In this document: one piece after another, positions 4,143 to 35,724 of the stretch
Numbering within the stretch: position 1 is the first letter of the stretch
How the letters are laid out: every line of letters begins with the position of its first letter
From: Sphingobium arseniciresistens
Lineage (GTDB): Bacteria > Pseudomonadota > Alphaproteobacteria > Sphingomonadales > Sphingomonadaceae
Direction: 5' to 3'
Length of the DNA: 40,512 nt
NCBI GenBank assembly: GCA_029167225.1
Contig: JARFNK010000036.1
Coordinates: 1-40,512 of the forward strand
Notes under the pieces: generated by a model
What the model was told of the DNA's origin: nothing
The model's database searches: none
What the model saw: the letters and a program-made list of their open reading frames with translations, nothing else
Translations under genes and position numbers: made by a program

Positions 4143-4146
4143 TCCC

Positions 4147-19168: not shown

Positions 19169-19177
19169 GGCCACCAG

Positions 19178-19813: not shown

Positions 19814-19919
19814 TCCGATGAAACGCGCTCAGGCGTCGATGTCTCCCGGCGCCATCACGAGAGGGCCGTCGGCATGGATGGCCCGCGTGTTCGAGACTGC
19901 TATCGACGGACGCACCAGA

Positions 19920-20090
19920 TCAGGACTGCGCGATGACGAGCGCCCGCGCGAGGTCACGAACGTGGACCCACTTCGCCTTATCGATCGGATTGAAGTCGGG
20001 GGCGGGAGGAAACGCAAAGTCGCGCCTGCCGCTTCGATCCGTTCGCGCACGGATACGCGGTTGTTGCTGGATAGGTTGTCCCCGCGGCCC
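19920..20090 (-). pseudogene. IS630-family transposase C-terminal remnant
   Basis: On the minus strand one frame reads DNLSSNNRVSVRERIEAAGA and TLRFLPP. After a frame change it continues PDFNPIDKAKWVHVRDLARAL to a TGA at 19920. This is the last part of the DDE catalytic region of IS630-type transposases (consensus DNLSSH...FLPPYSPDFNPIE). It is frameshifted, and the N-terminal two thirds are absent. It ends against the SnoaL-like gene. No inverted repeats or target duplication could be assigned. It marks the left border of the nicotinate island. Confidence 0.6.
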
Positions 20091-20504: not shown

Positions 20505-20594
20505 ATTCTATACCCCTTGCCAATATCCGTCCGAAGCTTCGGTAAAGACATGCTCGATCTGCGGCGGAGCGATGTAAATCCCAGTACCAGCATT

Positions 20595-20608
20595 ATCATA
20601 TGCCTGAT
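20595..20608. promoter_or_regulatory. ATCA-N6-TGAT dyad, copy 1 (SnoaL/IclR divergent promoter)
   Basis: The sequence is TTATCA-TATGCC-TGATCC with perfectly inverted ATCA/TGAT arms 6 nt apart. It lies in the roughly 360-bp gap between the SnoaL-like gene and IclR-1. It matches in arms and spacing the dyads near 28247, 34733 and 35565. Probable operator for one of the two IclR regulators (inference). Confidence 0.5.
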
Positions 20609-20862
20609 CCAGATGATCATTTTCGCGCTTTTCGGCACCTGCCGGTGCCCCGACGGCGCGGGCAGAGCCGTTACGGGCATCAACCGGCTGATATTTGCTT
20701 CCTGGGCTTGTCACCCCCCACGGGCAGACCGCATGCTTTGGCGCAAAGCAACTTCCTGCCCGCTACAGACCGCCTTCCGGAGCGGTAAGGGCGGCGGGGC
20801 CACGCGGAGAGGGGACTGGACGGCGCGTTTACGCGCAGCACAGGAATCGAAGGAGTCGCGCC

Positions 20863-21654
20863 ATGCTGGCTATGGAAAGCAACTACTCGGTCGTTGTCCC
20901 CTCAGCGGAATCGTCTGACGGCGCGATCATCAAGTCCGCCCATCGGGTCCTGCAGGTCTTCGAATATTTCGCGCACGTGCGACGACCCAGCAATGCTACC
21001 GAAATCGCCAATGCGCTATGCTTCCCCCAGTCGAGCACGTCTATGCTGCTGCGCAGCATGGTCAGCCTGGGATATCTTGCCTATCAGGCGGACTGCCGGA
21101 CGTTCGAGCCCACCATCCGCCTGTCTTTGTTGGGCGGCTGGGACCCGCGACGGATCGATGTGGCGGGCGACATCATCGTGCGGCTCGGCCGCCTGCATGC
21201 CGAGACTGGCGAGACGGTGCTCCTCGCGCATATTGACCGCAATCTGGTTCGATATATCTATGTGCTGCAGAAACCGGCCAGTTCGGTTCCCTATTATTTC
21301 AAGCTTGGTACTGCGCGCCCGGCGTGCATGACCGCCGCGGGCCGCATGCTGATGACGCTCTATTCAGAGCGCGAGGTGATGGCCACGATCCACCGTGCCA
21401 ATGCCGAAGAGCCCGATCCGGCGGAATGGATCAACCGCAAGCAGTTCCTTGTCGAACTCGCCACGTGCCGCCGCGACCGGACCTGTGTCACGCGACGCGC
21501 CTTCGACGACCGGATCGGGGTCCAGATGGCGGCGCTGTTGCCCGCCGAAGGCGGCGTGCCAAAATTCGCCGTCGCACTGGTTTCCGAAGAACCGCGATTC
21601 ACTGCCAACGAGGCGTTCCTGCGCGAAAGGCTGGCGCACGCCGTCGCGGCCTGA
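20863..21654 (+). CDS. IclR-family transcriptional regulator 1
   Basis: 263 residues from ATG 20863, with AGGAG 7 nt upstream; the frame is open further upstream without need. The N-terminal winged helix (about 20-80) contains HRVLQVFEYFAH, PSNATEIANALCFPQSSTS and LRSMVSLGYLAY. The C-terminal effector domain contains YFKLGTARPACMTAAGRML. It is a clear paralogue of IclR-2 at 33876, sharing FPQSSTS/LPQSSTS and the LSLLG-W block. IclR proteins often control aromatic catabolism as activators or repressors. It is convergent with nicB (15 bp between stops) and probably controls the nicotinate genes; the effector is unknown. Confidence 0.88.
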   Translation: MLAMESNYSVVVPSAESSDGAIIKSAHRVLQVFEYFAHVRRPSNATEIANALCFPQSSTSMLLRSMVSLGYLAYQADCRTFEPTIRLSLLGGWDPRRIDVAGDIIVRLGRLHAETGETVLLAHIDRNLVRYIYVLQKPASSVPYYFKLGTARPACMTAAGRMLMTLYSEREVMATIHRANAEEPDPAEWINRKQFLVELATCRRDRTCVTRRAFDDRIGVQMAALLPAEGGVPKFAVALVSEEPRFTANEAFLRERLAHAVAA

Positions 21655-21669
21655 CCGCACTCCGCGAGG

Positions 21670-24600
21670 TCAGCGTGGCGTGCGCGGAGCCACTTCGGAC
21701 CGGATTCGCCGCACGCTCGCCGCCACATCCTGCCATTCGGGTCTGGCCGTGGCCTGCGTGCGCCGGATGAACCGCACGAGATCAGTCAGTTGGGCGTCGT
21801 TGAACTGATCGGCAAACGCGGGCATCGCGCCGCGCACGCCCTTGGCCGGATCGTTGACCCCCGAAAGGATCGTGCGGATCAGATTGTCGGGACGATCGGC
21901 ATGGACCGTCGTGCTGAGCGCAAGCGAGACTTTGCCTCCATACATATCGGGATTGTCGTTGGCGTGGCAAACCGCGCAGGCTCCATCGAAGGCGCGCGCG
22001 CCGACACTGTCGAGCGGGGCCAAGGATGCGCGGCCTAATTGGGTCAGCGCCTGCGCGCGCGCGCGCGCCGATGCATCGCTGACCACGTGACCGCTGCGCG
22101 AGGCCAAATAATGGGCCATCGCGCGGATATCACTGTCGGGCAAGGCAGCCATTTCGGCCACTACCGCGAGCATCGGCCCAACCGTGCCACCGTGCTGTTC
22201 CGACGCGCCGGTGCGCAAATATTGGTAGAGCGCCTCTTCGGTCCATGGCACCGGCGACCGCGACTGCGCACCGAGCGCCGGGGCATCCCAGCCGTCGACC
22301 ATGCCGCCGGCCAGATGGCGGCTGGTGATTTCCGCTCCCAGCGCATTGCGCGGGCTGTGGCAGGCCGAACAGTGCCCCACTCCTTCAACCAGATAGGCCC
22401 CCCGGTTCCACAGCGCCGACCGCGCCGGGTCGGGCGTGAATGGCTCTGCATTGTGGTACAGCGCGTTCCACCCGGCAACCAGCGGGCGCAGGTTCATCGG
22501 AAAGGCCAGCCGGGTGGCCTTTGGCGCCGCCACCACTGGCGGCTGCGCCATGAGCCAAGCATAAAGCGCCTGCATGTCGGGCTCGCTCAGCCGGGCGAAC
22601 GCAGTATAGGGAAATGCCGGATAGAGATGCCGGCCATCGCGCGAGATGCCCTGCCGCATCGCGCGATCAAACGCAGGATAACTCCACCCGCCGATACCGG
22701 TCGCAACGTCGGGGGTGATGTTGGTGGAATGCACCACCCCGAAGGGCGTTTCGATCGCAAGCCCGCCGGCGTTGACCGCGCCCCCGGCCTGCGTGTGGCA
22801 TACCGCGCAATCGCCGGCCGCCGCGACCTGCCGGCCGCGCGCGATCGTTTCTGCCGAATATGTGCCGGGGCTTACCGGCGGGACCGGGGCGATCGTCGGC
22901 GTTAAGGTCGCCATCGCTACAGCGCCTGCCGCGGCGCAGGCCGATAAGACTCCCGCGAACCACGACGACCGGGGTCGTGCCGGACGATTACCGCCGCCGC
23001 CCTGCGCCTGCAGCCCGGCGCGCACCCGTTCCGGCGTTAACGGAAATTCTCGAAAGCGTACGCCGGTCGCGTCGAACACCGCGTTGGCGATCGCAGCCGC
23101 GCTCGGCACCGAGGCGGATTCACCCACGCCCAACGGCGGGTCAAGCGGACGCGGCATCATCACCACGTCGATCACCGGTGCCTCGGTGAACTTGAGGATC
23201 GGATAAGTGCCCCAGTTCCGATTGGTTACTGCGGTTTCGTCGAACGTCACCCGCTCCATCAGCGAGCGACTGGTCGATTGCAGCACATTACCCTCGATCT
23301 GGTGGCGGACCCCTTCGGGATTGATCATCATTCCCGAATCCTGGCCCACCGTGACTTTGGTGACCGCCACCTCGCCTGTTGCCGTATTGACCTCGACATC
23401 GGCGACCCAAGCGGAGGCGGCAGCCGCCACGCCCGGAAAATGGCCATGGACGTATACCGCATAGGCGAAGCCCCGGCCACGAACGACATCGGGGGCCACC
23501 TGCTCCATCCGTGGCCCGGCATGCGGCGTCCATCCCGCGCGATCGGCCACCGCGCGTACCAGCTCAATGGCGCGCGCATCGTCGATGTGCCGCAGGCGGA
23601 ATTCGACCGGATCGCTGTTAGCCGCAAGCGCCAGTTCGTCAATGAAGGATTCGTGGGCAAAACAATTGGGCAGGGCCGAAACCCCGCGTAGAAAGGCGGA
23701 TCGGATGATCGTCCCCTGATCGTAATTGACCACGCGCATGCTGGGATAGCGATATGGCGGAATGGCGCTGCGATCCCCGCCGGTGGTCTGCACCGTGACC
23801 GGCTCGACCTTGCGGGTCAGCAGCAGCGCCAGCGTGGGCGCCATCCCGCAGGGATAGCGCGTGTGAAAATCGTAGGCCGCCAACGCGCCCGAATCATCCA
23901 GCCCGCCCTCCACCCTCATCAGCTGAGCGCCGCCCTTGGGCTCCCACCCATGCTCCTGCTCCCGGCTGAGTTGAACCCGCACCGGCGCGCCCACCGCTCG
24001 CGCCAGCAGCGCGGCATCTGCCCCCACATCGTCCATACCGCTGCGACCATACGAGCCTGAAGTCTCCAGCCGCACGATTTCCACATCGCCGACCGGAATG
24101 CCCAGCAACAGCGCCAGGTCGTCCTGCAGCATGCGCACGGTCTGCGTGCCGGACCACACCGTCAGCCGCCCGGCGTCATCGAACGCGGCCACCGAACAGC
24201 ACGGGCCGATCGATGCATGCATCTGAAACGGCCACACATATGTGCCTGACACCCGCGTGGCCGACGCGGCCAGCGCCGCATCGACATCGCCAGTATCGCG
24301 CAAAGTGCGCGGTGGCCCGGGATTTTCGAGAATCGCCTGTGTCGGCGGATCGAGATCGGGCAGTGGATCGGGCATCGCCCATTGCACGCGCAAGGCGCGC
24401 GCCGCATCCTCGGCCTGGTCTTCGCGTTCGGCAACCACGCCGACGAAGTCGTGCAGCACCACGACCTTCACCACGCCCGGAATGTGCGCGATCGAACCTT
24501 CGTCCACCGCGATCAGGCTGCGGCCCACGAAGGCGCCCTGGTCGCGCCCCGCATAGGGCGGCCGCACCACACGGCCGTGCAACATCCCGGGCATGCGCAC

Positions 24601-25194
24601 GTCGTGTACATAAGTCATCGTCCCGGTAGCCTTGCCCGGCAGGTCCACCCGCTGCGACGACTGGCCGACGATCGTGTAGCGTGCAGGATCCTTGACCGGC
24701 GTAGCAAGGTCGAGCGTCAGCGTCATCGCGGCGTCCGCCACCAGTTCACCATAGCCGATCGTTCGGTTGTCGCCACCGCGCGCGCCGACCCGGCCGTTGG
24801 CCGTGATCAGCATGTCCTCGCTCAGCCCCAGCCGCTCTGCTGCGCGCGCGACCAGCCAGCGCCGCGCCTGTGCAGCAGCGCAGCGCAGCGGCACGGCAGC
24901 GACCTGTATCGTCTCGCTCGCCGCGGTGGGCCCCTGGTCCGGCGTCCACACAGTATCACCCAGCACCATCGACACGCGATCGAGCGGCAGATCTAGCTCT
25001 TCGGCGATGATCTGCGCCAGCGACGTGCGAATGCCCGTGCCGAGATCGACATGACCGTTGAAGCCCGTGACGGTCCCGTCATCATGCACAGTCAGATAGA
25101 GATCGATCCGCCCTCCCGCCTGTTCGGCCACCCCCAGCACGCCCGGCCCGCGCAGCAGTTCTTCCGGCCCGGCGGCGGCAAAGTTCCGATTCAC
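21670..25194 (-). CDS. nicB: Nicotinate dehydrogenase subunit B (molybdopterin + tri-heme cytochrome c)
   Basis: About 1174 residues from GTG 25194, which overlaps the nicA stop as GTGA and has AACGAGGA upstream; the frame extends to 25233. Residues up to about 730 form the two xanthine-oxidase-type molybdopterin domains, ending with the active-site Glu motif LGVGESASVPSAAAIANA. A hydrophobic segment (about 740-760) then leads into a cytochrome region with three CxxCH heme sites, at Cys796, Cys942 and Cys1073. This Mo-domain plus three-heme fusion is the signature of NicB, which hydroxylates nicotinate at C6 with water and sends electrons to the respiratory chain through the hemes. It partners with the 2Fe-2S subunit encoded just upstream. 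Confidence 0.93.
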   Translation of the reverse strand: MNRNFAAAGPEELLRGPGVLGVAEQAGGRIDLYLTVHDDGTVTGFNGHVDLGTGIRTSLAQIIAEELDLPLDRVSMVLGDTVWTPDQGPTAASETIQVAAVPLRCAAAQARRWLVARAAERLGLSEDMLITANGRVGARGGDNRTIGYGELVADAAMTLTLDLATPVKDPARYTIVGQSSQRVDLPGKATGTMTYVHDVRMPGMLHGRVVRPPYAGRDQGAFVGRSLIAVDEGSIAHIPGVVKVVVLHDFVGVVAEREDQAEDAARALRVQWAMPDPLPDLDPPTQAILENPGPPRTLRDTGDVDAALAASATRVSGTYVWPFQMHASIGPCCSVAAFDDAGRLTVWSGTQTVRMLQDDLALLLGIPVGDVEIVRLETSGSYGRSGMDDVGADAALLARAVGAPVRVQLSREQEHGWEPKGGAQLMRVEGGLDDSGALAAYDFHTRYPCGMAPTLALLLTRKVEPVTVQTTGGDRSAIPPYRYPSMRVVNYDQGTIIRSAFLRGVSALPNCFAHESFIDELALAANSDPVEFRLRHIDDARAIELVRAVADRAGWTPHAGPRMEQVAPDVVRGRGFAYAVYVHGHFPGVAAAASAWVADVEVNTATGEVAVTKVTVGQDSGMMINPEGVRHQIEGNVLQSTSRSLMERVTFDETAVTNRNWGTYPILKFTEAPVIDVVMMPRPLDPPLGVGESASVPSAAAIANAVFDATGVRFREFPLTPERVRAGLQAQGGGGNRPARPRSSWFAGVLSACAAAGAVAMATLTPTIAPVPPVSPGTYSAETIARGRQVAAAGDCAVCHTQAGGAVNAGGLAIETPFGVVHSTNITPDVATGIGGWSYPAFDRAMRQGISRDGRHLYPAFPYTAFARLSEPDMQALYAWLMAQPPVVAAPKATRLAFPMNLRPLVAGWNALYHNAEPFTPDPARSALWNRGAYLVEGVGHCSACHSPRNALGAEITSRHLAGGMVDGWDAPALGAQSRSPVPWTEEALYQYLRTGASEQHGGTVGPMLAVVAEMAALPDSDIRAMAHYLASRSGHVVSDASARARAQALTQLGRASLAPLDSVGARAFDGACAVCHANDNPDMYGGKVSLALSTTVHADRPDNLIRTILSGVNDPAKGVRGAMPAFADQFNDAQLTDLVRFIRRTQATARPEWQDVAASVRRIRSEVAPRTPR

Positions 25195-25733
25195 GATGGT
25201 TCCTCGTTGGCTGGGGCGGGGCGAGGCCCGCAATGCTTGTCACCCGCGCCGGCGGCCATAGCGCGCGCCGCCGTCTTGACCGCCTGCAGCACTTCCACGT
25301 GCGATCCGCAGCGGCATAAATTGAAGCGCAGCGCCGTGCGGATGGTGGCGTCATCGGGATCGGGCACGCGGCGCAGCAGGGCATGTGCGGTCATGATCAT
25401 GCCATTCAGGCAATATCCGCATTGCGTGGCGTTTTCGGCAATGAACGCCGCCTGCACCGGATGCGGTGCCTCCGGCGTGCCCAGCCCTTCCAAAGTAACG
25501 ATCCGCGCGCCCTCCACCAGCCCGCCAACCGGCAACACGCAGGCCCGGGCCAGCTTGTTATCGATCAGCACGGTGCAGGCCCCGCACTGCGCCAGCCCGC
25601 AGCCGTATTTGGGCCCGTTGAGCCGCACGTCGTTGCGCAGCACATGCAACAGCAGCGTCTGGGCAGGCGCGGTAATCGCGTGCGGGGTGCCATTCACTGT
25701 TATATACACCGGCTTGTCCTGAGCTGTCTTCAT
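25191..25733 (-). CDS. nicA: Nicotinate dehydrogenase subunit A (2Fe-2S)
   Basis: 180 residues of the small iron-sulfur subunit of molybdenum hydroxylases. The plant-type 2Fe-2S cluster is bound by Cys45, Cys50, Cys53 and Cys65 (GCGLAQCGACTV...RAC). The second cluster is bound by Cys105, Cys108, Cys140 and Cys142 (QCGYCLNGM...CRCG). It relays electrons from the Mo centre of NicB to the cytochrome part. It carries an extra tail of about 25 residues (ending PAPANEEPS) compared with the usual 155 or so. The start overlaps the upstream hydrolase stop as ATGA, and its stop overlaps the nicB GTG, so translation is coupled at both ends. Confidence 0.93.
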   Translation of the reverse strand: MKTAQDKPVYITVNGTPHAITAPAQTLLLHVLRNDVRLNGPKYGCGLAQCGACTVLIDNKLARACVLPVGGLVEGARIVTLEGLGTPEAPHPVQAAFIAENATQCGYCLNGMIMTAHALLRRVPDPDDATIRTALRFNLCRCGSHVEVLQAVKTAARAMAAGAGDKHCGPRPAPANEEPS

Positions 25734-26737
25734 CGCGCCAGCAAGTCCCGTATCGCGCCATCGACCATGGCAATGTCGACAGGATCACTGCCAGGCGAAC
25801 CGGCCCGGTGCCCCCAGTCTGACTGGATCACCCGAAGCTGCGCATCACGCATCATCGCGACCTCGATGGCGCTGTCCTCTGGCGGAAAATAGAGATCGGT
25901 GGCGCAGGGCATGACGATCGTACGTGCGGTGATGGCACCCAGCGCGGCACTAAGGTCCCCGCCGAATTTCGGATTTGCCGAGGCATCGGCAGTCTGCCAA
26001 GTGCCGATCTGGGCCAAGATATCATTGGCATCGACACGCATTTCACCCATCGACCGCGTGGCGAACGCCTGCGCCGAGGCGTAGCCCTGCGCCTTATACA
26101 GCCCCCGCCGGAAATAGCCCTGCCCCACGCCCCACCCATCGAACAGCATGCGCATCCGCTGTAACCCGAGCGTCAGCGGCTGGGCATACTCACCGCTCAG
26201 CCATTCGGGATCGGACGTCAGCGCATTGCGCACCTGTTCCAAGAACAGCCAATTGTGATCAGATGTTCTAGCCGATCCCGCCAGCGCCAGCAGCCGTTCG
26301 ACAGCGGCGGGATAATGGCAGGCCCACTGGTAGGCGATCTGCGCACCCATCGAACGGCCCACCACCAGGCGCAACCGATCGATCCCGAATACCGCGCGCA
26401 GCATGTGGCGCTGCAGCCGCACGTTGTCGAGCACGGACACCGCAGGGAAGCGAGGCCCATCGTGCGGAGCAGGCGAATTACTAGGCGATGATGAATGCCC
26501 ATTGCCCAGGATGTTGACCACTATGATGAAATGCCTGTGCGGATCGAGCCCCCATTTCGGGCCGATTATCCACTCGTTGAAGTCATGGTTGCAGCCAAAC
26601 CAAGTGGGGAAAAGGACGGCGTTGTCGCGCGCCAGGCTCAGCGTACCATGCGTTGTATATACGAGCCGGGCGGCAGGCAGGGTAACCCCGCATTCGAGAC
26701 GAAAAGCGCCCAGTTCGTGACATTGGACCTGGGCCAT
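25730..26737 (-). CDS. MetX-like alpha/beta hydrolase, candidate N-formylmaleamate deformylase
   Basis: 335 residues from ATG 26737, which overlaps the amidase stop as TGATG; the open frame extending to 27145 is not coding. The fold is that of the homoserine O-acetyltransferase group. The nucleophile is Ser129 in VVGRSMGAQIAYQWA, with Asp281 in PCATDLYFPPED and His310 in SDWGHRAGSPG; the oxyanion region is FPTWFGCNHDFNEW. Many MetX-like proteins are simple hydrolases. Its position between the amidase and nicA in a nicotinate operon lacking canonical nicD makes N-formylmaleamate deformylation the best guess. A metabolic methionine role is unlikely here. The assignment to the pathway is inference; the family and triad are read from the sequence. 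Confidence 0.8.
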   Translation of the reverse strand: MAQVQCHELGAFRLECGVTLPAARLVYTTHGTLSLARDNAVLFPTWFGCNHDFNEWIIGPKWGLDPHRHFIIVVNILGNGHSSSPSNSPAPHDGPRFPAVSVLDNVRLQRHMLRAVFGIDRLRLVVGRSMGAQIAYQWACHYPAAVERLLALAGSARTSDHNWLFLEQVRNALTSDPEWLSGEYAQPLTLGLQRMRMLFDGWGVGQGYFRRGLYKAQGYASAQAFATRSMGEMRVDANDILAQIGTWQTADASANPKFGGDLSAALGAITARTIVMPCATDLYFPPEDSAIEVAMMRDAQLRVIQSDWGHRAGSPGSDPVDIAMVDGAIRDLLAR

Positions 26738-28020
26738 CACGCCGCCAGCGCCGCTTCCAGAAACGCTGCCGCGCGCAACAGGCACGCATCGTCGCCGGGC
26801 CTTCCGACCAGCTGGACCCCCACCGGCAAGCCTTGCGATCCAAAGCCCGCCGGGATCGTAATGCACGGGGCACCCAATACCATCCAACCGCGGCAAAAGC
26901 TGGGATCGCCCGTGCGTTCGAGCCCCACGGGGGCTTCGCCCGGGGCTGCCGGAGTCAGCAGCACGTCTGCATCTCCGAACAGCGCATCCACATTGGCACG
27001 TGCCACCCGCGCATCGCGCTGCGCCGCATCGTGGCGCGCGGCCGATGCGCCCTCGGTGCCCTGCGCATACATCGCGCGGGTGACCGGGTGCAGCAGATCG
27101 GCCAGAAAATGCTGCTCGAAAAACAGCACCCGGCGCACTTCCCATGCGGCGATGTCGGCATGGATGCGCAGCAGATCGTCATAGCCGGCCAGCAACGGAC
27201 GTTCCGGCACCTTGACCCCGCGCGCGGCTAGTGCGGCCACAGCGCGCTGCAGCGCCTGTTCGGTGGCGGGTTCGATCAGCTCCGCGGCCTCGCTGCGATA
27301 GAGCGCCACGCGGGGGGCCGCTGGCGTATCGGGCACGGCCAGCCCAGGCCTGTCGCTGACCACCCCGGTGAAGAATGCCACGTCGCGCACGGCCCGCGCC
27401 AAGACACCGATCGTATCGAAGCTGCCGGCTAGGGTCTTTGCCCCGCTGCGGTCGATCAGCTCATGGCTCGGCTTGTAGCCTACCACCCCGCAGAACGCGG
27501 CGGGCCGGATCACTGACCCCGCGGTCTGGGTACCCAGCGCCACATGCACCATGCCGGTGGCCACCGCCGCCGCGGACCCGCTGGATGATCCACCCGGCGT
27601 GTGTGCTGGGTTATAAGGATTGCGGGTCTGTCCCGCGCCCCCCGCCGCGAATTCGGTGGTCACTGTCTTTCCCATGACGAGCGCGCCCGCTGCGCGCAGC
27701 CGCGCCACCACCGCCGCATCGCAGGCCGGACGGAAGCCGGCATAGGCGCGCGAACCATAGGAGGTCGGCATCTGCACGGTATCGATGACATCCTTGACCC
27801 CGACCAGCATCCCGCGCAGCGGTCCAGCAGCGGCGTTCCGATCAAGCATCCCCGCCGCATCGCGCGCCTGCGCTGCATCGAGATGCTGCCATGCGCCGAC
27901 GCGCGGCTCGATCTCGGCAATCCGCGCCAGCGCGTGGTCGACCAGCGCTGCAACGGTCAATTCGGCTTGGGCGACTGCGGTGATCGCCTCCAGCGCCGAC
28001 AGGGTACACGGGTCCGACAA
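26737..28020 (-). CDS. Amidase signature family enzyme, candidate maleamate amidohydrolase
   Basis: 427 residues with the complete Ser-cisSer-Lys triad of the amidase signature family: Lys76 in VGVKDVIDT, Ser145 in TPGGSSSGSAAAVA and Ser169 in GTQTAGSVIRPAAFCG. Length and motif spacing match malonamidase/GatA-like single-domain amidases. It is the first gene of the minus-strand operon and overlaps the hydrolase by one base. In Pseudomonas putida, maleamate is deamidated by NicF, an isochorismatase-fold enzyme. No typical nicF adjoins this operon, so this amidase may do that step. Amide hydrolysis of a pyridine carboxamide is the main alternative. Confidence 0.82.
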   Translation of the reverse strand: MSDPCTLSALEAITAVAQAELTVAALVDHALARIAEIEPRVGAWQHLDAAQARDAAGMLDRNAAAGPLRGMLVGVKDVIDTVQMPTSYGSRAYAGFRPACDAAVVARLRAAGALVMGKTVTTEFAAGGAGQTRNPYNPAHTPGGSSSGSAAAVATGMVHVALGTQTAGSVIRPAAFCGVVGYKPSHELIDRSGAKTLAGSFDTIGVLARAVRDVAFFTGVVSDRPGLAVPDTPAAPRVALYRSEAAELIEPATEQALQRAVAALAARGVKVPERPLLAGYDDLLRIHADIAAWEVRRVLFFEQHFLADLLHPVTRAMYAQGTEGASAARHDAAQRDARVARANVDALFGDADVLLTPAAPGEAPVGLERTGDPSFCRGWMVLGAPCITIPAGFGSQGLPVGVQLVGRPGDDACLLRAAAFLEAALAA

Positions 28021-28169
28021 GAAAATCCCCTTGAAGATAGGGTTTGCGAGGTCATTGCGTAGAGCCGCCCGCCCTTCGGTGGTTCCTGCCGGCGCTCCGC
28101 AATGCCCGCGAAGTCATGACATCGGCGGCCTCCGGGTCAAACCCAAACCGAACGGTGCACGCGCGAAAT

Positions 28170-28209
28170 CATGAATATGAAATCTGACGCATGAATATGA
28201 AATCTGACG
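28170..28209. repeat. 20-bp perfect tandem repeat upstream of nicX
   Basis: CATGAATATGAAATCTGACG occurs twice head to tail (28170-28189 and 28190-28209) with no mismatch. It lies 170-210 bp upstream of the nicX start. A one-turn-plus spacing of 20 bp would put both copies on nearly the same face of the helix, as expected for cooperative regulator binding. The copies could also be a replication slippage product. Confidence 0.75.
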
Positions 28210-28246
28210 GTAGCGGTGCAGCCCAGCTACGCGCTAGGCCGACGTG

Positions 28247-28264
28247 AAATCATATCCTTGATTG
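28247..28264. promoter_or_regulatory. AAATCA-N6-TGATT dyad, copy 2 (nicX/amidase promoter)
   Basis: AAATCA-TATCCT-TGATTG has five of six arm positions inverted with a 6-nt spacer. It shares arms and spacing with the perfect AAATCA-TGTTCC-TGATTT dyad upstream of the TonB receptor. It lies about 120 bp upstream of nicX. Confidence 0.55.
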
Positions 28265-28380
28265 GGCATTGCACGCGCCGACCATATGCTTCGTCCATGC
28301 CGCATCCATTGCGGCGAGCCCGACGAACATGCGCCGGGCTCGCCCGAACCTTGTTGCGGCCGTTCCGGGGAAACGTGACG

Positions 28381-29421
28381 ATGGTAGATTCCGAATTGGT
28401 GGCGACGTTCCAGGATGAGCTGCGGCTGTGCGGTGTGGGACCTGGCTGCGTCGTGGCGGCGTTGTCGGAAGGGCAGGATCGGCAGGACTATGCGCAGGCG
28501 ACCATGATCGCCGCCGGCGCGCTGGGCGCACAGGCGTTTCACGTCAACCTGCCGCGCCGCACCGGCCCCGACAGCCCCGTTGCGGGGAACCGGCCAGTGA
28601 TCGAGATGCTCAAGCGCGCGGATCTCGTACTCGATTTTCTGGGCTTGTTGTTTTCGCACGAACAGAACGAGATCCTGGCTTCGGGCACGCGCATGCTGAT
28701 GGTGCTTGAACCATTGCATGTCCTGCGCCAGCTGGCCCCCGATGCGGACTTGCGCCGGCGGGTAGAACTGGCCGGAACCATGCTGACGCGCGCAAGCGAA
28801 CTCCGCTTCACTTCGCCCCACGGCACCGACATCCTCTATCGGCTGACGCAATATCCGGTGCTGACCGAATATGGCTTTACCGACACCCCCGGCCGCTGGG
28901 ACCACTGGCCGTCCGGCTTTTTGCTGACCAATGGGGACGATGGCGGGGTCGATGGCACGGTGGTACTGGCTCCCGGTGACATCTCGATGATATTCCAGCA
29001 GTATTTTACCTCGTTTGTGACCCTGACGGTCGAACGCGGCTATGTCACGAAGATCGCGGGCGACGGGCTCGATGCGATCCTGCTGCGCGAATACATGGCC
29101 AGCTTCAACGACCACCGGGCCTATGCCGTGTCGCACATCGGCTGGGGAATGAACGAGAAGGCGCGCTGGCACACCATGGCCACCAACCGGCTGGCGATGT
29201 CTCCGGCGATGCAGGGCAGCCCGGAACTGGGCGTCCATGCGCTGTCATTCCAGGGCAATGTGCTGTTTTCGCTCGGCCCCAATTCGGAAGTCGGCGGCAC
29301 CAATGACACCGCCTGCCACATCGACATGCCGATGCGCGGGTGCAGCCTGTGGCTCGACGACCAGCTGATCGTCGAACACGGCCGCATTGTCGACGATGCG
29401 CTGCGCGCACCGGGTACCTGA
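28381..29421 (+). CDS. nicX: 2,5-dihydroxypyridine 5,6-dioxygenase
   Basis: 346 residues from ATG 28381 with GGGGAAA upstream; the frame is open to 28216 but that part looks non-coding. It matches NicX, the non-heme Fe(II) extradiol enzyme that opens 2,5-dihydroxypyridine to N-formylmaleamate. Candidate metal ligands in the family pattern are His252 (AVSHIGWGMNEKA) and His313 and Asp315 (NDTACHIDMPM). NicX belongs to the leucyl-aminopeptidase-like M29 fold rather than to classical extradiol dioxygenases. It is the first gene of the plus-strand operon, followed 39 bp later by nicC. Intact and of normal length (about 350). Confidence 0.9.
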   Translation: MVDSELVATFQDELRLCGVGPGCVVAALSEGQDRQDYAQATMIAAGALGAQAFHVNLPRRTGPDSPVAGNRPVIEMLKRADLVLDFLGLLFSHEQNEILASGTRMLMVLEPLHVLRQLAPDADLRRRVELAGTMLTRASELRFTSPHGTDILYRLTQYPVLTEYGFTDTPGRWDHWPSGFLLTNGDDGGVDGTVVLAPGDISMIFQQYFTSFVTLTVERGYVTKIAGDGLDAILLREYMASFNDHRAYAVSHIGWGMNEKARWHTMATNRLAMSPAMQGSPELGVHALSFQGNVLFSLGPNSEVGGTNDTACHIDMPMRGCSLWLDDQLIVEHGRIVDDALRAPGT

Positions 29422-29460
29422 TCGCCGGCGTCCCCACCCCTTTGCAATTTTCAGGAGATT

Positions 29461-30636
29461 ATGATGCAGACAAGGCAAAGAATCGCCATCGTCGGCGCCG
29501 GATTGGGCGGCGTAACCGCGGCGATCCTGCTCCAGCAGGCCGGACACGACGTTACCGTCTATGAACAGGCCCCCGCGCTGGCGCGGATCGGCGCGGGCAT
29601 CGGCCTCGGCCCCAATATCCTGCGCGTGATCGCAAGGATTGGTGCCTATGATGAATTGCGCTCGATCGGCATCGTGCAGAAGAACACGCTCAGCAGGGTG
29701 TGGGATACCGGAGAGATCCTGTGGGATCGCGGCGGAGACATGGCTGAGGCGACATTCGGCTTTCCCGAGCTGACCATTCACCGAGGTGACCTGTTGACCG
29801 TGCTGACCCGCCATCTCAGGCCCGGCACGATCCAGCTGAAGAAGGAACTTCTCGATATCGGCCACCGGCTGGGCGGAACGCAGCTGCTGTTCACCGATCA
29901 GACCGAATACGATGCCGACATCGTGATCGGCGCGGACGGCGTCAATTCCCGGGTGCGCGAGATTCTGCTGGGCTATCAGGAGCCTACATATACCGGCTTC
30001 GTGGCGTTCCGCTCTGTGTATCCCAGCGCGCTGCTGGGCGAATGGCGTCCGCCTTGCGACGGAGCCAAATGGTGGTCCGACGCGCGCCACCCGGCAGGAG
30101 AGGATCGCCATTTCATCCATTACTACCTCAGCGAAAAGCGCGATGAGATGTATTTCGTCACTGGTTCTCCCTATCCCGACTGGCCGGGCGGCGTATCGTC
30201 GGTGCCCGCCACCAAGGCCGAAATCAAGCAGTGCTACGAAGGTTTTCACGATGACGTGCAGCGGCTGATCGACGCCGCGCCGGCAGCCTCCAAATGGCCG
30301 CTGCTCGAACGCAACCCGCTGCCGTTGTGGAGCAATGGCAATGTCGTGATGCTGGGCGATGCCTGCCACCCGATGAAGCCACACATGGGCCAGGGCGCAG
30401 GGATGGCGTTCGAGGATGCGGCCGTGCTGGCCCGCGCGATCGACGGGGCCGACGGCAATTTCGTCGACGCCTTCGAAACCTATCGCGCCACGCGCATCCA
30501 GCGGACCAGCGAGATACAGCGGCAGTCGCGGGTCAACGTCTGGATGAAGACCGCGACCGATCCGGGCTGGGTCTACAATTATGACGCGCTGACCGTGCCG
30601 CTGGTACGCGGCACCGTCGAGAACGCCCAGTCGTGA
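29461..30636 (+). CDS. nicC: 6-hydroxynicotinate 3-monooxygenase (FAD-dependent)
   Basis: 391 residues of the group A flavin monooxygenases. It has the FAD fingerprint IAIVGAGLGGVTAAIL, the DG motif IVIGADGVNSRVRE and the late FAD block VVMLGDACHPMKPHMGQGAG. The stretch RNPLPLWSNGNVVMLGDACH is nearly that of NicC, which converts 6-hydroxynicotinate to 2,5-dihydroxypyridine with NADH, O2 and loss of CO2. Position 48 (GAGIGLGPN) is Gly, where NicC of Pseudomonas, as I recall it, has the catalytic His47 in GAGIHIGPN. The gene starts with AGGAG just before the ATG pair and is coupled to the next gene (GTGA). Confidence 0.9.
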   Translation: MMQTRQRIAIVGAGLGGVTAAILLQQAGHDVTVYEQAPALARIGAGIGLGPNILRVIARIGAYDELRSIGIVQKNTLSRVWDTGEILWDRGGDMAEATFGFPELTIHRGDLLTVLTRHLRPGTIQLKKELLDIGHRLGGTQLLFTDQTEYDADIVIGADGVNSRVREILLGYQEPTYTGFVAFRSVYPSALLGEWRPPCDGAKWWSDARHPAGEDRHFIHYYLSEKRDEMYFVTGSPYPDWPGGVSSVPATKAEIKQCYEGFHDDVQRLIDAAPAASKWPLLERNPLPLWSNGNVVMLGDACHPMKPHMGQGAGMAFEDAAVLARAIDGADGNFVDAFETYRATRIQRTSEIQRQSRVNVWMKTATDPGWVYNYDALTVPLVRGTVENAQS

Positions 30637-31745
30637 CCGATCGCGCGGCTGCTGTCGCGGCCTCCCAGCATGGTGCCGGCCGGCTGGGGCCATGGCAATG
30701 GCCGGTCCTGATGGTGCTGTCGGCGATGCTGTTTGCGCTGTTTGCTGCGGTGCGGCTAACTTCGGCGGCGTTTCTCGGGCCAATGGTGGCGGGGCTGGCC
30801 ATGGCGCTCGCCGGATCAGACCTGAGGATCGCGCGTCAGGTGCCGATGGTGTGCCAGGCAGTGATCGGCTGCATGGTGGGGCTTGGGGTGAACTTTGGCA
30901 CGCTAAGCTTTGTTGGCGCGCATGGACCAGTGATCGCCGGTGTTATCGGTGCCACTGCGTTGGCCACGTGCGCGGTAGCGTGGTGCGTGGCGCGCGCCAG
31001 CACCCTCTCCGCGCAGACGGCCGCATGGGGGGCCATGCCGGGCGCGGCCAATATCATGGTGGCATTGGCGGCGGAGTCGGGCGGCGATGCGCGGCTGGTC
31101 GCCTTCATGCAATATATTCGCGTGATCGCGGTGCTGTCGACGGCCTCTGTCGTCGCTTCGATCATGGCCGGTCCGGGCCCTGCCACCTCCACCGTGGCGG
31201 TTGGCGGAGCAGCGGGGATGGATGTGCCGCTGAACGCCGGTGCGCTAGCAGCGAGTGCAGTCCTGATTATGGCCGGTCTGCTGATCGGCCGGGGCCTGCG
31301 CATTCCCGCAGGACCACTACTGGTCACCGCCATGCTGGCAAGCGGTGTGCATGGACTGCAGCTGTTTCCCATGCAGCTACCCGGCTGGGCGCTGTCGCTG
31401 GCGTTCAGCGCGGTCGGCTGGTTCGTCGGGTTGCAGTTCGACCGGGCCGCGCTGGGCATGGCGGTGCGCAACCTGCCCGCCATGATCTGCGGCACGCTGG
31501 CGCTGATTGTGTTGTGCGCCGGGATCGGCATGGTCCTGTCGCTGCGGCTGGGGCTCGATCCGGTCACTGGCTATTTGGCCACCAGTCCCGGTGCGATCGA
31601 TACCGTAGCGATCCTCGCATCGGGAGGAAAGGCCGACATGGCGGTGGTCATGGCAATCCAAACGCTGCGGTTCTTCGCGGTGATCATGCTCGCGCCGTGG
31701 CTCGCGGCTTTCATCGCGCGGATCGTGCCTGCGCGTCGGCCATGA
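30633..31745 (+). CDS. AbrB-type (PF05145) integral membrane protein, putative transporter
   Basis: 370 residues from GTG 30633, overlapping the nicC stop as GTGA. About ten hydrophobic helices form two repeats. The family hallmark of AbrB-type membrane proteins is seen in WGAMPGAANIMVALAAE, followed by LVAFMQYIRVIAVL. A second copy of the motif appears as ATSPGAIDTVAILA. This family is often misnamed ammonia monooxygenase or AbrB regulator; it is a membrane protein with unproven transport roles. Strict coupling to nicC suggests export or import of a pathway compound, for instance a pyridine acid or maleate. That role is inferred. Confidence 0.75.
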   Translation: MTDRAAAVAASQHGAGRLGPWQWPVLMVLSAMLFALFAAVRLTSAAFLGPMVAGLAMALAGSDLRIARQVPMVCQAVIGCMVGLGVNFGTLSFVGAHGPVIAGVIGATALATCAVAWCVARASTLSAQTAAWGAMPGAANIMVALAAESGGDARLVAFMQYIRVIAVLSTASVVASIMAGPGPATSTVAVGGAAGMDVPLNAGALAASAVLIMAGLLIGRGLRIPAGPLLVTAMLASGVHGLQLFPMQLPGWALSLAFSAVGWFVGLQFDRAALGMAVRNLPAMICGTLALIVLCAGIGMVLSLRLGLDPVTGYLATSPGAIDTVAILASGGKADMAVVMAIQTLRFFAVIMLAPWLAAFIARIVPARRP

Positions 31746-31824
31746 CGCGATAGGGTGCAGCCCAACACCTGCCCGGTCGCAGCCTGTCCCGTACCATTTA
31801 TGCAATCCATCAACGGGGACCATT

Positions 31825-32305
31825 ATGACCAGACAGACCGGACGTGCGCGCATATCGGCTACGCTGGACGCCGCGCTACCCTACATTGCCCGCGAGTTCA
31901 ATTTTCGGTGGGATCCGGAAGCTGCGCATATCGTGACGCGCGCCGTGGCACCACCTGGTCTGTTAGCCCCTCGACGTGTCGGTCAAGACCGACATGCGCC
32001 GCGCAATGTCGCGGCTGGACAAAGCCCGTTCGCCCGCGGCGAGCTATGTTCTGCGCCACGCGGAAGGCAGCCCGATGTGGGACCAGCTGTCTTTTGCTAC
32101 CTGGATCGACCCAGCGATCGTCACCCGCGCCTCGTCCTATGGAATTGATGTCAATATCGATCATGGCGCGGGCTATTGCGATACCCTAGTCGACTATCGC
32201 AACCACCCCGACCGGTCGAACAGCCTCGATATCGAAGCCGACCGGTTCTACGCGCTGTTCGCGCGTTTGATGGCACGGCCTAGCGGTAACTGGCACATCA
32301 GGTAG
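31825..32305 (+). pseudogene. Inosine-uridine-type nucleoside hydrolase, truncated and frameshifted
   Basis: Two adjacent frames together read like the C-terminal half of an IUNH nucleoside hydrolase. The first has REFNFRWDPEAAHIVTRA (the family EFN...DPEAA block). The second has PLDVSVKTDMR, then GSPMWDQLSFATWIDPAIV. The break lies at about 31940, where a CGCGCGCC run seems shortened by two bases. In the corrected frame RAPWHHLVC is followed by a TAG at about 31957. The N-terminal half with the DTDxxxDD metal site is absent. A nucleoside hydrolase beside nicotinamidase would fit use of nicotinamide riboside; this copy cannot be functional. Confidence 0.65.
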
Positions 32306-33527
32306 CCGTGATCGCCGGACTTTTGCTCCAGTGGCCCGAAACTATCAGCGTGATGGCGATCGCGAAGAAGCCGATCTGGCCCAAGATCGCCGCCGAATAG
32401 CTGCCGGTATGCGTATAGACGAGCGCCACCGCCGGCACGCACACCACCGAAAACGGCAGGTTGACCAGATTGAACAGGCCATAGGCTTGACTGAAGTTTT
32501 CTGCCCCGAATGCGCGTGACAGCACGAGCCCCAGCACTGGGAGCACGCCATAGCCGTGCAATCCGATCAATGCGACCAGCACCACCAGCAGGGGATAGGG
32601 CGGATGCGCCAAAAACAGCGTCCACAGGGCAGCCTCGTTGAACAACAGCACCGCAAAAGTGCGCACCGCCCCGATCCGGTCCGCCACCCAGCCGAACAGT
32701 ATAGTGCCAGCGATCCCCGCCATCGCTTGGGTCGAGATAAGAAACGCGGCCATCGTGGTCGAAAATCCCCAGCTCGACGCCATGGGCACCATATGCGCCG
32801 ACAGTGTGATTGAGCTGGCGGTCGAACACGCCGCCGGGATCGCCAGACACCAGAATCGCCCAGACCGCAATAGGTCGGAAACCGCCAGCGTTCCATGATG
32901 GACCGAGCTCTCATCGGTCCCCATCGCCCGCTCGGGCGGCCGATCGATAATGAACAGCCCCGCGATCACCGTCACGCCGGCCAGCATGGCAAGGATCAGG
33001 TAGGCAGCGCTCAGCCCGAGATGGAGCAGGACCCACGATAAACCCACAGGAATCAGCGTGATCACGATCGGCGCGCCGATAAAGCCCAGTGCACGGCCAC
33101 GACCCTGGCGGAACCAACGCGTGACCAGCGTCGATGGGAGGATTACCCCGATTGCCATCCCGGGCCCGAGCATCAGCCCATAGGCCACAAGGTACAGCAC
33201 ATAGCTGTGCGACAGTGCCAGGCACAGATAGCCTCCGGTACTTAGCGCCCCGCCGCACAGAACCACCAACCGCAGCGACGATCGCGCTGCCAGAACCCCC
33301 ACGAAAGGCGCGCTGATCGCCAGCACCAGATTGACTAGCGGAATACCCAGCGTGCTCAGTTCGCGCCCCACGCCCAGCCGCATCTCGACCGCAGCGAGCA
33401 ACACGCTGAACGATCCCCATAGCGCGCCCACCGTGATGTTGTTAGTCAAGAACGCGATTGCTGCCATTCTGATGGCAAGCGGGTGATTGCGGTCAGCCGC
33501 GTACCCCGCGATCGAACCTGTGAGCAT
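32298..33527 (-). CDS. MFS transporter (monocarboxylate/OFA-like)
   Basis: 409 residues from ATG 33527, with AGGAGA 8 nt upstream; the longer open frame to 33677 is not needed. About twelve membrane helices are visible. The first half has LGIPLVNLVLAISAPFVGVL and a cytosolic loop VTRWFRQGRGRALG, typical of the MFS loop between TM4 and TM5 in the oxalate/monocarboxylate group. The second half has the loop GWVADRIGAVRTF. It is a good candidate for uptake of nicotinate or nicotinamide through the inner membrane, in the role NicT plays in Pseudomonas. It is convergent with the nucleoside hydrolase remnant and divergent from IclR-2. Confidence 0.85.
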   Translation of the reverse strand: MLTGSIAGYAADRNHPLAIRMAAIAFLTNNITVGALWGSFSVLLAAVEMRLGVGRELSTLGIPLVNLVLAISAPFVGVLAARSSLRLVVLCGGALSTGGYLCLALSHSYVLYLVAYGLMLGPGMAIGVILPSTLVTRWFRQGRGRALGFIGAPIVITLIPVGLSWVLLHLGLSAAYLILAMLAGVTVIAGLFIIDRPPERAMGTDESSVHHGTLAVSDLLRSGRFWCLAIPAACSTASSITLSAHMVPMASSWGFSTTMAAFLISTQAMAGIAGTILFGWVADRIGAVRTFAVLLFNEAALWTLFLAHPPYPLLVVLVALIGLHGYGVLPVLGLVLSRAFGAENFSQAYGLFNLVNLPFSVVCVPAVALVYTHTGSYSAAILGQIGFFAIAITLIVSGHWSKSPAITAT

Positions 33528-33875
33528 GGGCGAGTCTCCTGGCGACGTGGCGACAGCGGGTGCGGCCCACCGGTCGCTGGTGATGGGGATGACGGCACGG
33601 GAGGACCCGGCACCGCATGGCGCCGCCATGTGCAGTGCAGCATGGGGACCTGACCATGGAACCCGTCCGCGCGGCAAGGCAAGATCGTGCTGTGCCCGGC
33701 GATATCACATTTGTGAAATAGCCGCCCATTCGACACGGAATTGCGGATTGACCCAAACGTACAGATGCAGCACTGTGCAGGTGGTCGCCATGCGGCCGGA
33801 CGGGCCGGTATCACGCGACGAGAGCTGTTCCATGATCCCTGACCCCCGCGCGGTCGATCAAGACAATGCCGACTG
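33528..33875. promoter_or_regulatory. MFS/IclR-2 divergent intergenic region with a TCACA-TT-TGTGA dyad
   Basis: This 348-bp gap holds no credible gene. At 33705-33716 TCACATTTGTGA forms a perfect dyad around TT. The wider sequence TATCA-CATTTG-TGAAA (33703-33718) has the same TCA-N6-TGA spacing as the other island sites. It is about 180 bp upstream of the MFS start and 160 bp upstream of IclR-2, so it could serve both promoters. Confidence 0.45.
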
Positions 33876-34721
33876 ATGACGCGGGGTTCGCCCCCTGCCC
33901 CGCCTGCCGGGCGGCGTAGCTCGGCCGGGCGGGGCACATCGCAGGGCGACTACAAGCTAGTAGCTGAATCCGACACCGAATATGACAAGGGCCAAGTCAA
34001 ATCGGCGCAGCGCGCACTGCAGGTGTTCGAATATTTCACGGATCGCGGAGCGGCCGCAAGCGCTTCGGAAATCACCGGGGGCCTCGCCCTGCCGCAATCG
34101 AGCACCTCGCTATTGCTGCGCACGCTGGTCAACCTCGGGTATCTCGACTTCGATCCGGCCAGCCGCCTCTATCGCCCTTCGCTGCATCTGTCGCTGCTGG
34201 GCGCGTGGAAGCAGGACCAGTCGGCGCGTGCGGCGCGGATCGTGCACGCAATGGAACAGCTTGGCGCGATTACCGGCGAATGCGTCATGCTGGCCGAACG
34301 TTATCGCCACTTCATCCGCTATATCTATGTTGTGCAGCGCCGCGATCCTGAACGATCGCTCTATTTGCCGGTCGGCACGATGCGCCCGATCTGCGGCACC
34401 GCTGCGGGGCGCATCCTGCTGGCCCGGTTGCCGATGACGGAGACGCGCAGCCTGATCCACGCCGCGCGCAACGATCCCGAAAGCGATGATTTCGGGATCC
34501 TGCCCGAACCGGTGCTGACGGCTGTCGGCCAGGCAGTTGCCGATGGCTATGCGCAGACCAGCCGCCCCGCGCTTGACCAGGAATCGTTTCAGCTGGCCGT
34601 GCCAGTGATCACGCCGGACCAACCGCCGCTAGCGCTGGGGCTGCTGTGCTTGGGCGAGCGTTTCGTGCATCATCGCCGAGAATGGCTTGCCGCGTTGGTC
34701 GATCAGGCAGAGCGAATCTGA
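33876..34721 (+). CDS. IclR-family transcriptional regulator 2
   Basis: Up to 281 residues; the first 40 (Gly/Pro/Ser rich) look unstructured, and the true start is uncertain because the ribosome-binding site at 33876 is weak. The winged helix has QRALQVFEYFTD, SASEITGGLALPQSSTS and LRTLVNLGYLDF. The effector domain has YLPVGTMRPICGTAAGRILL. It is a paralogue of IclR-1, conserved in the recognition helix (PQSSTS-LLR), so the two may bind similar sites. It is flanked by the MFS gene and the nicotinamidase, and likely controls one or both. Confidence 0.87.
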   Translation: MTRGSPPAPPAGRRSSAGRGTSQGDYKLVAESDTEYDKGQVKSAQRALQVFEYFTDRGAAASASEITGGLALPQSSTSLLLRTLVNLGYLDFDPASRLYRPSLHLSLLGAWKQDQSARAARIVHAMEQLGAITGECVMLAERYRHFIRYIYVVQRRDPERSLYLPVGTMRPICGTAAGRILLARLPMTETRSLIHAARNDPESDDFGILPEPVLTAVGQAVADGYAQTSRPALDQESFQLAVPVITPDQPPLALGLLCLGERFVHHRREWLAALVDQAERI

Positions 34722-34732
34722 CTGCGTAGCGG

Positions 34733-34746
34733 ATCAACCCGATGAT
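34733..34746. promoter_or_regulatory. ATCA-N6-TGAT dyad, copy 4 (upstream of nicotinamidase)
   Basis: GGATCA-ACCCGA-TGATAT has perfect ATCA/TGAT arms with a 6-nt spacer. It lies in the 130-bp gap between IclR-2 and the nicotinamidase, about 105 bp before the ATG. Arms and spacing match the other island copies. Confidence 0.45.
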
Positions 34747-34851
34747 ATTTGCGGGATGGACTTGCTTCAAGACGTCGGCACATGACACATCCGCTGCATC
34801 GCAACACAGATTTACCCTGGGGCAGACACCGAGCCCCATAGCGGAGGTTAC

Positions 34852-35478
34852 ATGAACACGGTTTCCGAAGACGCGTTGGTCGTGATCGACATGCAGAACG
34901 ATTTCGTCACCGGAGCAATGTCGTGCCCCGGCACCGAAGATATCATCGACCCGATCAACCGGCTTGCCAGTGCCTTCGACCATGTGCTGGTGGTGATGGA
35001 CTGGCATCCGGCCGACCACATCTCGCTTGCTCGCAATCACGAAGGTCGCTCACATTGGGACGAGATCGACGTACCCTATGGCAAGCAACTGGTGTTTCAC
35101 GACCACTGCATCCAGGGAACGCGCGGTGCTCAGCTCGATGAACGGCTCGAACTGACCAAAGCCGAAATCATCTTTCGCAAGGGGCATCGCAAGACGACCG
35201 ATTCCTTCGGCGCGTTCTACGAAAATGATGGAGTGCCGACCGGGTTCGGTGCCTATTGCAAGGCGCGCGGCTTTCGCCGTCTCTACATGACCGGGCTCGG
35301 CCGCTATGGTTGCGTGCTTGAATCCGCACTGGGGGCCGCGAAAGACGGGTTTGAGGTCTACATGGTCTACGATGCTACGGCGGGCGATTACAACGTCGAG
35401 GAAAACAACCGAATTCTCGAACAGGCGGGGGTGAAGTGGATCACGTCCGAAGCCGTCTTCGGGCAAATCGCCGTCTGA
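34852..35478 (+). CDS. pncA: Nicotinamidase (isochorismatase-like cysteine hydrolase)
   Basis: 208 residues of the PncA type. The catalytic triad is Asp13 (VIDMQNDF), Lys110 (FRKGHRK) and Cys154 (LGRYGCVLESAL). The metal site is Asp50, His52, His56 (DWHPADHIS) and His85 (HDHCIQGT). These are nicotinamidase features rather than those of NicF-type maleamate hydrolases. It should release ammonia from nicotinamide to give nicotinate, feeding nicAB. The usual TDYC/TDHC around the nucleophile is RYGC here, so the substrate might be a modified nicotinamide. GGAGG lies 4 nt before the ATG. It is transcribed in the same direction as the TonB receptor, with a 231-bp gap between them. Confidence 0.85.
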   Translation: MNTVSEDALVVIDMQNDFVTGAMSCPGTEDIIDPINRLASAFDHVLVVMDWHPADHISLARNHEGRSHWDEIDVPYGKQLVFHDHCIQGTRGAQLDERLELTKAEIIFRKGHRKTTDSFGAFYENDGVPTGFGAYCKARGFRRLYMTGLGRYGCVLESALGAAKDGFEVYMVYDATAGDYNVEENNRILEQAGVKWITSEAVFGQIAV

Positions 35479-35709
35479 ATCACTCGATCCGCGCGCCCGT
35501 GCCGGCAGTCCCGCCGAGGCGCGCAGCCGTGCTGAGCGCATGTGGCGCCACAGCCCGATACGACAAATCATGTTCCTGATTTCTTGGTGCGCCAGCTTGT
35601 CTTCGCGGTGCATTTACGGTGAACTGTCGCTCAAGCACCAAATCATGACTTAATAAAAATTAATATATCAGAACAATCTGAAATTATTGATGGGAGGGAC
35701 CAAAGTTAA
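35479..35709. promoter_or_regulatory. AT-rich promoter region of the TonB receptor
   Basis: The 3' part (35640-35700) is strikingly AT-rich for this window and is a likely promoter. It contains TCAGA-ACAA-TCTGA (35668-35681), a perfect 5-bp dyad. Upstream is the AAATCA-N6-TGATTT dyad (35565-35582), and AAATCATGA (35639-35647) repeats its left arm. A GGGAGG element follows. Confidence 0.5.
35565..35582. promoter_or_regulatory. AAATCA-N6-TGATTT dyad, copy 5 (TonB receptor promoter)
   Basis: AAATCA-TGTTCC-TGATTT is a perfect 6-bp inverted repeat with a 6-nt spacer, the best copy of the element. It is about 145-160 bp upstream of the receptor start. The same arms and spacing occur before nicX. 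Confidence 0.55.
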
Positions 35710-35724
35710 ATGGGGAGCAATTTA

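Follow-up and report, generated by a model that had tools for sequence, protein, structure and literature searches.

An ATCA-N6-TGAT dyad as candidate operator of an IclR-associated nicotinate-catabolism island in Sphingobium arseniciresistens

Local control of nicotinate breakdown is known from Pseudomonas putida, where it is exerted by NicR and NicS, and from Bordetella, where it is exerted by BpsR; NicR and BpsR are MarR-type proteins and NicS is TetR-type. A presumed nicotinate cluster of Bacillus niacini resembles the locus treated here in carrying an IclR gene, together with a TetR gene; the part of that account drawn on here (PMC4256190) expects an operator and describes none, and the comparison is with the description of the cluster rather than with its sequence. 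The present locus is a stretch of 40,512 nucleotides from Sphingobium arseniciresistens (assembly GCA_029167225.1, contig JARFNK010000036.1, positions 1 to 40,512), referred to below as the window. It contains an island of genes for nicotinamide/nicotinate catabolism in which, unlike the NicR/NicS-type clusters with their MarR or TetR genes, only IclR regulators were recognised among the proteins scanned. Gaps preceding the island genes repeatedly contain the dyad ATCA-N6-TGAT. Judging from sequence, we put at roughly 0.8 the probability that these dyads serve as operators in a local regulon for nicotinamide/nicotinate catabolism, bound by IclR1 or IclR2, the two paralogues encoded in the island.

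Placement of the dyads in the window

Five exact copies of ATCA-N6-TGAT occur in the window, at 20595, 20679, 28249, 34733 and 35567, and all five sit in gaps that precede island genes. The copy ATCATATGCCTGAT (20595..20608) lies between a SnoaL-like gene and iclR1, with ATCAACCGGCTGAT (20679..20692) 84 bp from it. On the nicX side of the gap between the divergent amidase and nicX genes is ATCATATCCTTGAT (28249..28262). The remaining two are ATCAACCCGATGAT (34733..34746), between the iclR2 stop codon and a nicotinamidase-like gene, and ATCATGTTCCTGAT (35567..35580), ahead of the gene for a TonB-dependent outer-membrane receptor (TBDT). Two near-dyads accompany them. One, ATCACATTTGTGAA (33704..33717), lies between the MFS transporter gene and iclR2 and lacks the last T; the other, ATCATGAATATGA / ATCATGAATATGAA (28168..28181), is on the amidase side of the amidase/nicX gap and is paired at the equivalent place in Sphingomonas formosensis with 18 of 21 bases identical. 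The dyad is best written WATCA-N6-TGATW.

Placement is a stronger signal than the count in the window. Dinucleotide shuffling of the window predicts 0.62 exact sites, and five were reached in none of 100 shuffles; the looser form ATCA-N6-TGA occurs at 12 distinct places, seven in the island and five outside it (707, 1494, 4328, 5788 and 10782). The 6.6-Mb genome contains 186 exact dyads, or about 1.1 per 40.5 kb. For a background we used a crude gene prediction over 400 kb of contig C1. All 11 exact and all 28 WTCA-N6-TGAW sites of that stretch fell inside predicted genes, leaving no site of either kind in 60,982 bp of predicted non-coding DNA. The same prediction applied to the window gave four exact and six W-type non-coding sites in 2,806 bp at 20001-38000, and no exact or W-type site in 2,922 bp of non-coding DNA at 1-20000. 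The prediction counts four exact island sites and not five because the automatic start of NicX is the GTG at 28216; site 28249 is non-coding solely if NicX starts at the ATG at 28381, the start that homologues favour. Hand-chosen island gaps hold the five exact dyads in 1,421 bp, compared with 0.013 expected by shuffle.

These counts bear on an initial annotation of the DNA, which had listed five dyads before island genes. Every one of the five is present where the list put it, the four it called exact are exact, and the fifth (33704) lacks its final T just as described, but the list missed the exact site at 20679; the location before island genes holds for all five exact copies now known. The near-site at 28168 was also absent from that list. 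The accompanying estimate that such a dyad would be expected less than once in 40 kb agrees with the shuffle and fails against the genome rate, and the equal frequency in unrelated intergenic regions that would have spoken against an operator is not what the non-coding DNA of contig C1 contains.

The window dyads are centred about 98 to 261 bp ahead of start codons, and the dyads in relatives, according to which start is taken, at roughly 50 to 250 bp; the usual zone of IclR sites, in the portions of PMC8222616 drawn on here and below, is -20 to -80. At 28170-28209 the window carries a direct repeat of the 20-bp unit CATGAATATGAAATCTGACG, which puts two half-sites 20 bp apart and so fits the spacing of 18-22 bp reported there for tandem IclR sites. 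Strict helical phasing was not found among the paired sites, whose spacings are 84, 81, 69, 47 and 23 bp.

Recurrence in homologous islands

A contig search returned seven NicX relatives. The closest (74%) is in S. formosensis (G302), and a second homologous island, with a NicX of 72%, was found in another genome (G311). S. formosensis has exact dyads at its amidase/nicX, nicotinamidase-like and TBDT promoters and near-sites at amidase/nicX and nicC, while G311 has dyads at amidase/nicX and at the end of its iclR gene, before an MFS gene. When the homologous amidase/nicX gaps were aligned by blastn, each of the three pairings had its best match at a dyad (E 0.002-0.03). Identity by descent of the whole amidase/nicX gap was ruled out, as alignment was limited to short stretches and was best at the dyads.

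The dyad also stood out when all 3,840 dyads with four-base arms were ranked by their frequency in gaps that we had picked by hand with the sites already known. ATCA-N6-TGAT ranked first in the window gaps, first in the S. formosensis gaps (four in 1,626 bp) and tied for first in the G311 gaps (two in 529 bp). Pooled over the three genomes there are 11 dyads where 0.033 are expected, and in 300 shuffled sets of these gaps no dyad among the 3,840 exceeded seven. An extended consensus, GAWATCA-N6-TGATWTC with at most one mismatch, matches the S. formosensis genome at four places, all of them in the island; since the consensus was derived partly from these same sites, the result speaks for specificity and is not independent support.

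The nicC gene of G311 (72%) is about 177 kb from its nicX, in the series TBDT, aldo-keto-reductase-like open reading frame (ORF; assigned by look), nicC, abrB, a series some 175 kb from nicX. A search aimed at finding such a site found, in the 402-bp gap before this TBDT gene, TTCA-CACATA-TGAT at 227 bp from the start codon; it is one base off in one arm and is overlapped by a mechanically called ORF of 151 amino acids on the opposite strand. In S. formosensis two dyads 23 bp apart stand between the TBDT gene and a divergent ORF (L049, 9430-9777); the ORF, which by eye resembles a gene for a membrane-anchored fusion protein, may be an additional target.

The S. arseniciresistens genome contains two more clusters of NicX/NicC homologues, L046 (G000:C30:84000-103999) and L047 (G000:C33:453000-472999), with NicX at 49% and 42%, which hold one exact dyad, within a long ORF, and none. 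No IclR relative was found by tblastn in either of these 20-kb stretches. Among NicX-bearing loci other than the islands above, ten in which tblastn found no IclR relative contain 22 copies of WTCA-N6-TGAW, 20 within ORFs of at least 150 amino acids and two outside them. A search of plasmid records found no NicX match of at least 60%.

The IclR paralogues and their relatives

IclR1 (20863..21654, + strand; recognition helix PQSSTSMLLRS) and IclR2 (33876..34721, + strand; PQSSTSLLLRT) both match HTH_IclR and IclR_C above the Pfam cut-offs and so belong to the IclR family. In a tree of 38 proteins IclR1 groups with a protein of S. formosensis (support 100/98), IclR2 groups with one of G311 (100/99), and the four form a single clade (100/100). 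A profile built from the four, with 9 of 34 first-look candidates scored in S. formosensis and 9 of 19 in G311, gave a single match in S. formosensis at E up to 1e-28 and two in G311, one close and the other distant. The IclR1 orthologue alone was thus seen in S. formosensis and the IclR2 orthologue alone in G311, and because each relative shows a different paralogue while both keep the dyad, both paralogues probably read it and share the window's sites.

The recognition helices are consistent with this. With residues numbered after Table 5 of PMC8222616, the stretch P27 Q28 S29 S30 T31 S32 is common to IclR1, IclR2 and their two orthologues; at position 33 IclR2 has Leu and the remaining three proteins have Met. 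For IclR operators of even length that source gives Ser30 as strongly preferred, Arg33 as strongly avoided and Leu33 as among the weak preferences; all four island proteins have Ser30 and none has Arg33.

It may instead be that a single paralogue reads the operators and that the other has a different role or is decaying. The presence of one close IclR in each of the two relatives would suit such an arrangement, as would the longer branch of IclR2 (0.89, compared with 0.54), yet the residues P27-S32 do not distinguish the paralogues or their orthologues, and islands with either one alone keep the same dyad. We regard this as unlikely, though it is the strongest competitor to shared reading of the dyads by both paralogues. 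The initial annotation had proposed a single regulon operator bound by one or both paralogues; recurrence at equivalent promoters in two other genomes supports the first part, and of the choices in the second part both proteins seem favoured, each relative having retained the dyad with one of them.

An association between the dyad and this kind of regulator was sought in a wider set of IclR loci. The test set comprised 48 Alphaproteobacteria IclR loci from two genome searches, picked by similarity to the four island IclRs and not by their helix, and the controls were 28 canonical IclR loci from among the strongest HTH_IclR matches. The upstream region was the 400 bp before the HTH match; in the controls these 400 bp end a few codons deeper in the gene. 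Locus L073 was dropped for a stop codon in the stretch (it has no site), L143 was moved from the controls to the test set for its helix-like residues (no site), and L149 was removed because it duplicates L059; of the 30 controls 28 were kept, and three profile matches without loci were left out of the test set.

WTCA-N6-TGAW occurs upstream of 16 of the 48 related genes and of none of the 28 canonical ones (Fisher P 0.0003, by a test that ignores relatedness). Shuffled upstream regions gave means of 0.41 per 48 and 0.37 per 28, with a maximum of three in 500 shuffles. The site was within 150 bp in 12 of the 48, and the count after removal of close relatives was 13 of 35. A PxSS helix is present in 42 of the 48 (site in 14) and a PxSSxS helix in 30 (site in 11). 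The same enumeration of dyads applied to the canonical set placed TTCC-N7-GGAA first (5 of 28), in keeping with the group-1 core as published; the procedure thus recovers a known answer. Many sites of the related iclR genes are 35-130 bp from the HTH match and hence near the gene start, as for autoregulation. In two loci from two other alphaproteobacterial families, L062 (at about 2251) and L068 (at about 1422), an exact ATCA-N6-TGAT stands between a TonB-receptor match and the related iclR gene; the two genes are divergent in L068 and on the same strand in L062.

Several observations weigh against the reading of the dyads as IclR operators. No dyad was found in the 400 bp upstream of 32 of the 48 related genes, nor upstream of any of five further related loci, bringing the total to 16 of 53. 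Dependence on the helix is not strict, as two of six relatives without PxSS still have the site, and an unbiased ranking was modest: the dyad stood at 5 of 35 non-redundant loci, a value matched by the top-ranking dyad of 3 out of 200 shuffles. Met33, present in three of the four island IclRs, is not named for even-length motifs in the part of PMC8222616 used here. For all three genomes the ranking gaps were hand-drawn post hoc, and the start of one G311 gap was set at 6590 so as to take in the site at 6591, which overlaps the last codons and stop codon of iclR and without which G311 has one exact site. Between genomes the gaps before the nicotinamidase-like and TBDT genes gave no blastn alignment at the dyads, so that position alone speaks for these sites. 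The sole extended match in G311 (one mismatch) is outside its island, as are three of the five in S. arseniciresistens itself. Of these three, a perfect match on contig C39 is within an ORF of 581 amino acids and another on C33 is within an ORF of 712 amino acids (DNA ligase by eye); the third, on C12, is in an apparent gap about 250 bp upstream of a short-chain dehydrogenase-like gene for which no link to the pathway was seen. Finally, an arm of four letters could be read by another regulator encoded outside the window.

This last point leads to a further explanation, namely that the dyad is a real regulon operator read by a regulator of LysR, TetR, MarR or CRP/FNR type encoded elsewhere. We infer IclR binding, and the known nicotinate regulators are of MarR and TetR type; ATC-N8-GAT also resembles the ATC-N9-GAT boxes of LysR-type proteins. 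The spacing in those boxes is nine, however, and eight here, the subset of window ORFs that was scanned yielded no recognised LysR or MarR gene, and the three TetR genes found are all outside the island. The dyad also precedes related IclR genes in 3.7-kb loci that gave no match to NicX, NicA, NicB or amidase. We therefore judge a non-IclR reader to be improbable. Chance recurrence of a common eight-base dyad, in favour of which stand the 186 copies in the genome and the perfect extended match within the C39 ORF, is ruled out for practical purposes by the shuffles, the enumeration of dyads and the non-coding background, there being none in 61 kb of predicted non-coding DNA against four or five in 1.4-2.8 kb of island gaps and the dyad coming first or joint first of 3,840 in three genomes.

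The proposed regulon and described IclR systems

Genes were assigned from NCBIfam, Pfam and solved-structure matches. The SnoaL-like gene (20091..20504, - strand; Pfam PF12680) is a possible divergent target. Downstream of iclR1, four genes on the - strand encode a NicB-like molybdopterin large subunit fused to cytochrome c (21670..25233), a NicA-like 2Fe-2S subunit (25191..25733), a MetX-like alpha/beta hydrolase with a putative NicD-like role (25730..26737) and an amidase (26737..28020), which may carry out the maleamate step. On the + strand follow a NicX-like 2,5-dihydroxypyridine 5,6-dioxygenase (28381..29421; PDB 7CN3, 5e-73), a NicC-like 6-hydroxynicotinate 3-monooxygenase (29461..30636; PDB 5EOW, 2.2e-102) and an AbrB-duplication membrane protein (30633..31745). 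The AbrB-duplication protein is found near nicC in three genomes (window 30633-31745, L050 5131-6219, L156 16718-17746) and may be a transporter of pyridine compounds. The MFS transporter gene (32298..33677, - strand) precedes iclR2, which is followed on the + strand by an isochorismatase-fold hydrolase (34852..35478) and the TBDT (35710..37902). The nearest solved relative of the hydrolase is the nicotinamidase 2WT9 (5e-40), so that it is better named nicotinamidase-like than NicF, and the island may begin from nicotinamide. A group II intron reverse transcriptase/maturase (38555-39895, - strand) adjoins the island. The assembly, 6.6 Mb with 6.02% contamination, may in part be a mixture; it is larger than the other listed genomes of the genus, which span 2.4-6.2 Mb.

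In the mechanism we propose, the dyad would be bound by IclR1 or IclR2, acting as a homodimer or as a pair of dimers, with each recognition helix (PQSSTS-M/L-LLR) reading one TCA/TGA half-site. Because 8 bp separate the C and G of the half-sites, the two helices would lie about one turn apart on the same face of the DNA. Binding would coordinate the outer-membrane receptor, the nicotinamidase-like enzyme, the amidase/nicX promoters, the transporter and the iclR genes themselves, and either binding or activity would respond to a compound of the pathway, be it nicotinate, 6-hydroxynicotinate or some later intermediate. Activation and repression seem about equally likely; we do not lean to activation, since some of the relatives' sites are close to start codons. 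Sigma-70 promoter scans around three sets of sites yielded 0, 1 and 0 matches, compared with shuffle means of 0.3, 0.5 and 0.3.

More tentatively, and at somewhat less than even odds, a clade of alphaproteobacterial IclR proteins, most of them with a PxSS helix, may have an operator code of its own, WTCA-N6-TGAW, that departs from the published IclR consensus; two anciently diverged members would then share the operators of this island, as a two-input switch or hetero-oligomer governing the uptake and breakdown of nicotinamide/nicotinate. The island would represent a candidate vitamin B3-catabolism regulon in sphingomonads under the control of IclR rather than MarR or TetR proteins. If a specific IclR subgroup is indeed tied to a specific operator, then operators and targets could be predicted for many uncharacterised IclRs of Alphaproteobacteria, some of which adjoin TonB-dependent receptors, and two paralogues acting on one operator, if true, would be a clean case of sharing or competition between duplicated regulators.

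A literature search with the operator strings together with IclR found no paper describing an ATCA-N6-TGAT operator, and the string 'nicotin' does not occur in the main text of PMC8222616. On the letters of the sites, the dyad fits the IclR geometry and departs from published IclR sites in its arms. The nearest published form, in the portions of that source used here, is the operator of the even-length subgroup iv of IclR group 1, NGTYCRAW4TYGRACN (Suvorova and Gelfand 2021, PMC8222616). Both are palindromes that share a YCR...YGR core and separate the conserved C and G by 8 bp: the dyad has TCA/TGA at every one of the 16 aligned sites, themselves picked for those letters, and CA-N6-TG gives the even-length spacing. 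They differ in the outer arms, which are WA/TW in the dyad and GT/AC in subgroup iv. Of the two positions before TCA, one is A and one A or T, each in 27 of the 32 half-sites, and the published arms (GT...AC, GTT, TGT or WTT) do not fit, so that the dyad is a variant and not a member of subgroup iv. Nor does it have the AT-rich W4 centre, as the nic-island spacers include TATGCC, ACCGGC and ACCCGA. A further described system is PheR, the IclR-family repressor of phenanthrene catabolism in Sphingobium (PMC13273656, drawn on in part). PheR has a minimal element GCAACG and a 44-bp footprint, and not ATCA-N6-TGAT, but like the proteins proposed here it is a sphingomonad IclR regulator that acts on aromatic catabolism with effects on TonB-dependent uptake.

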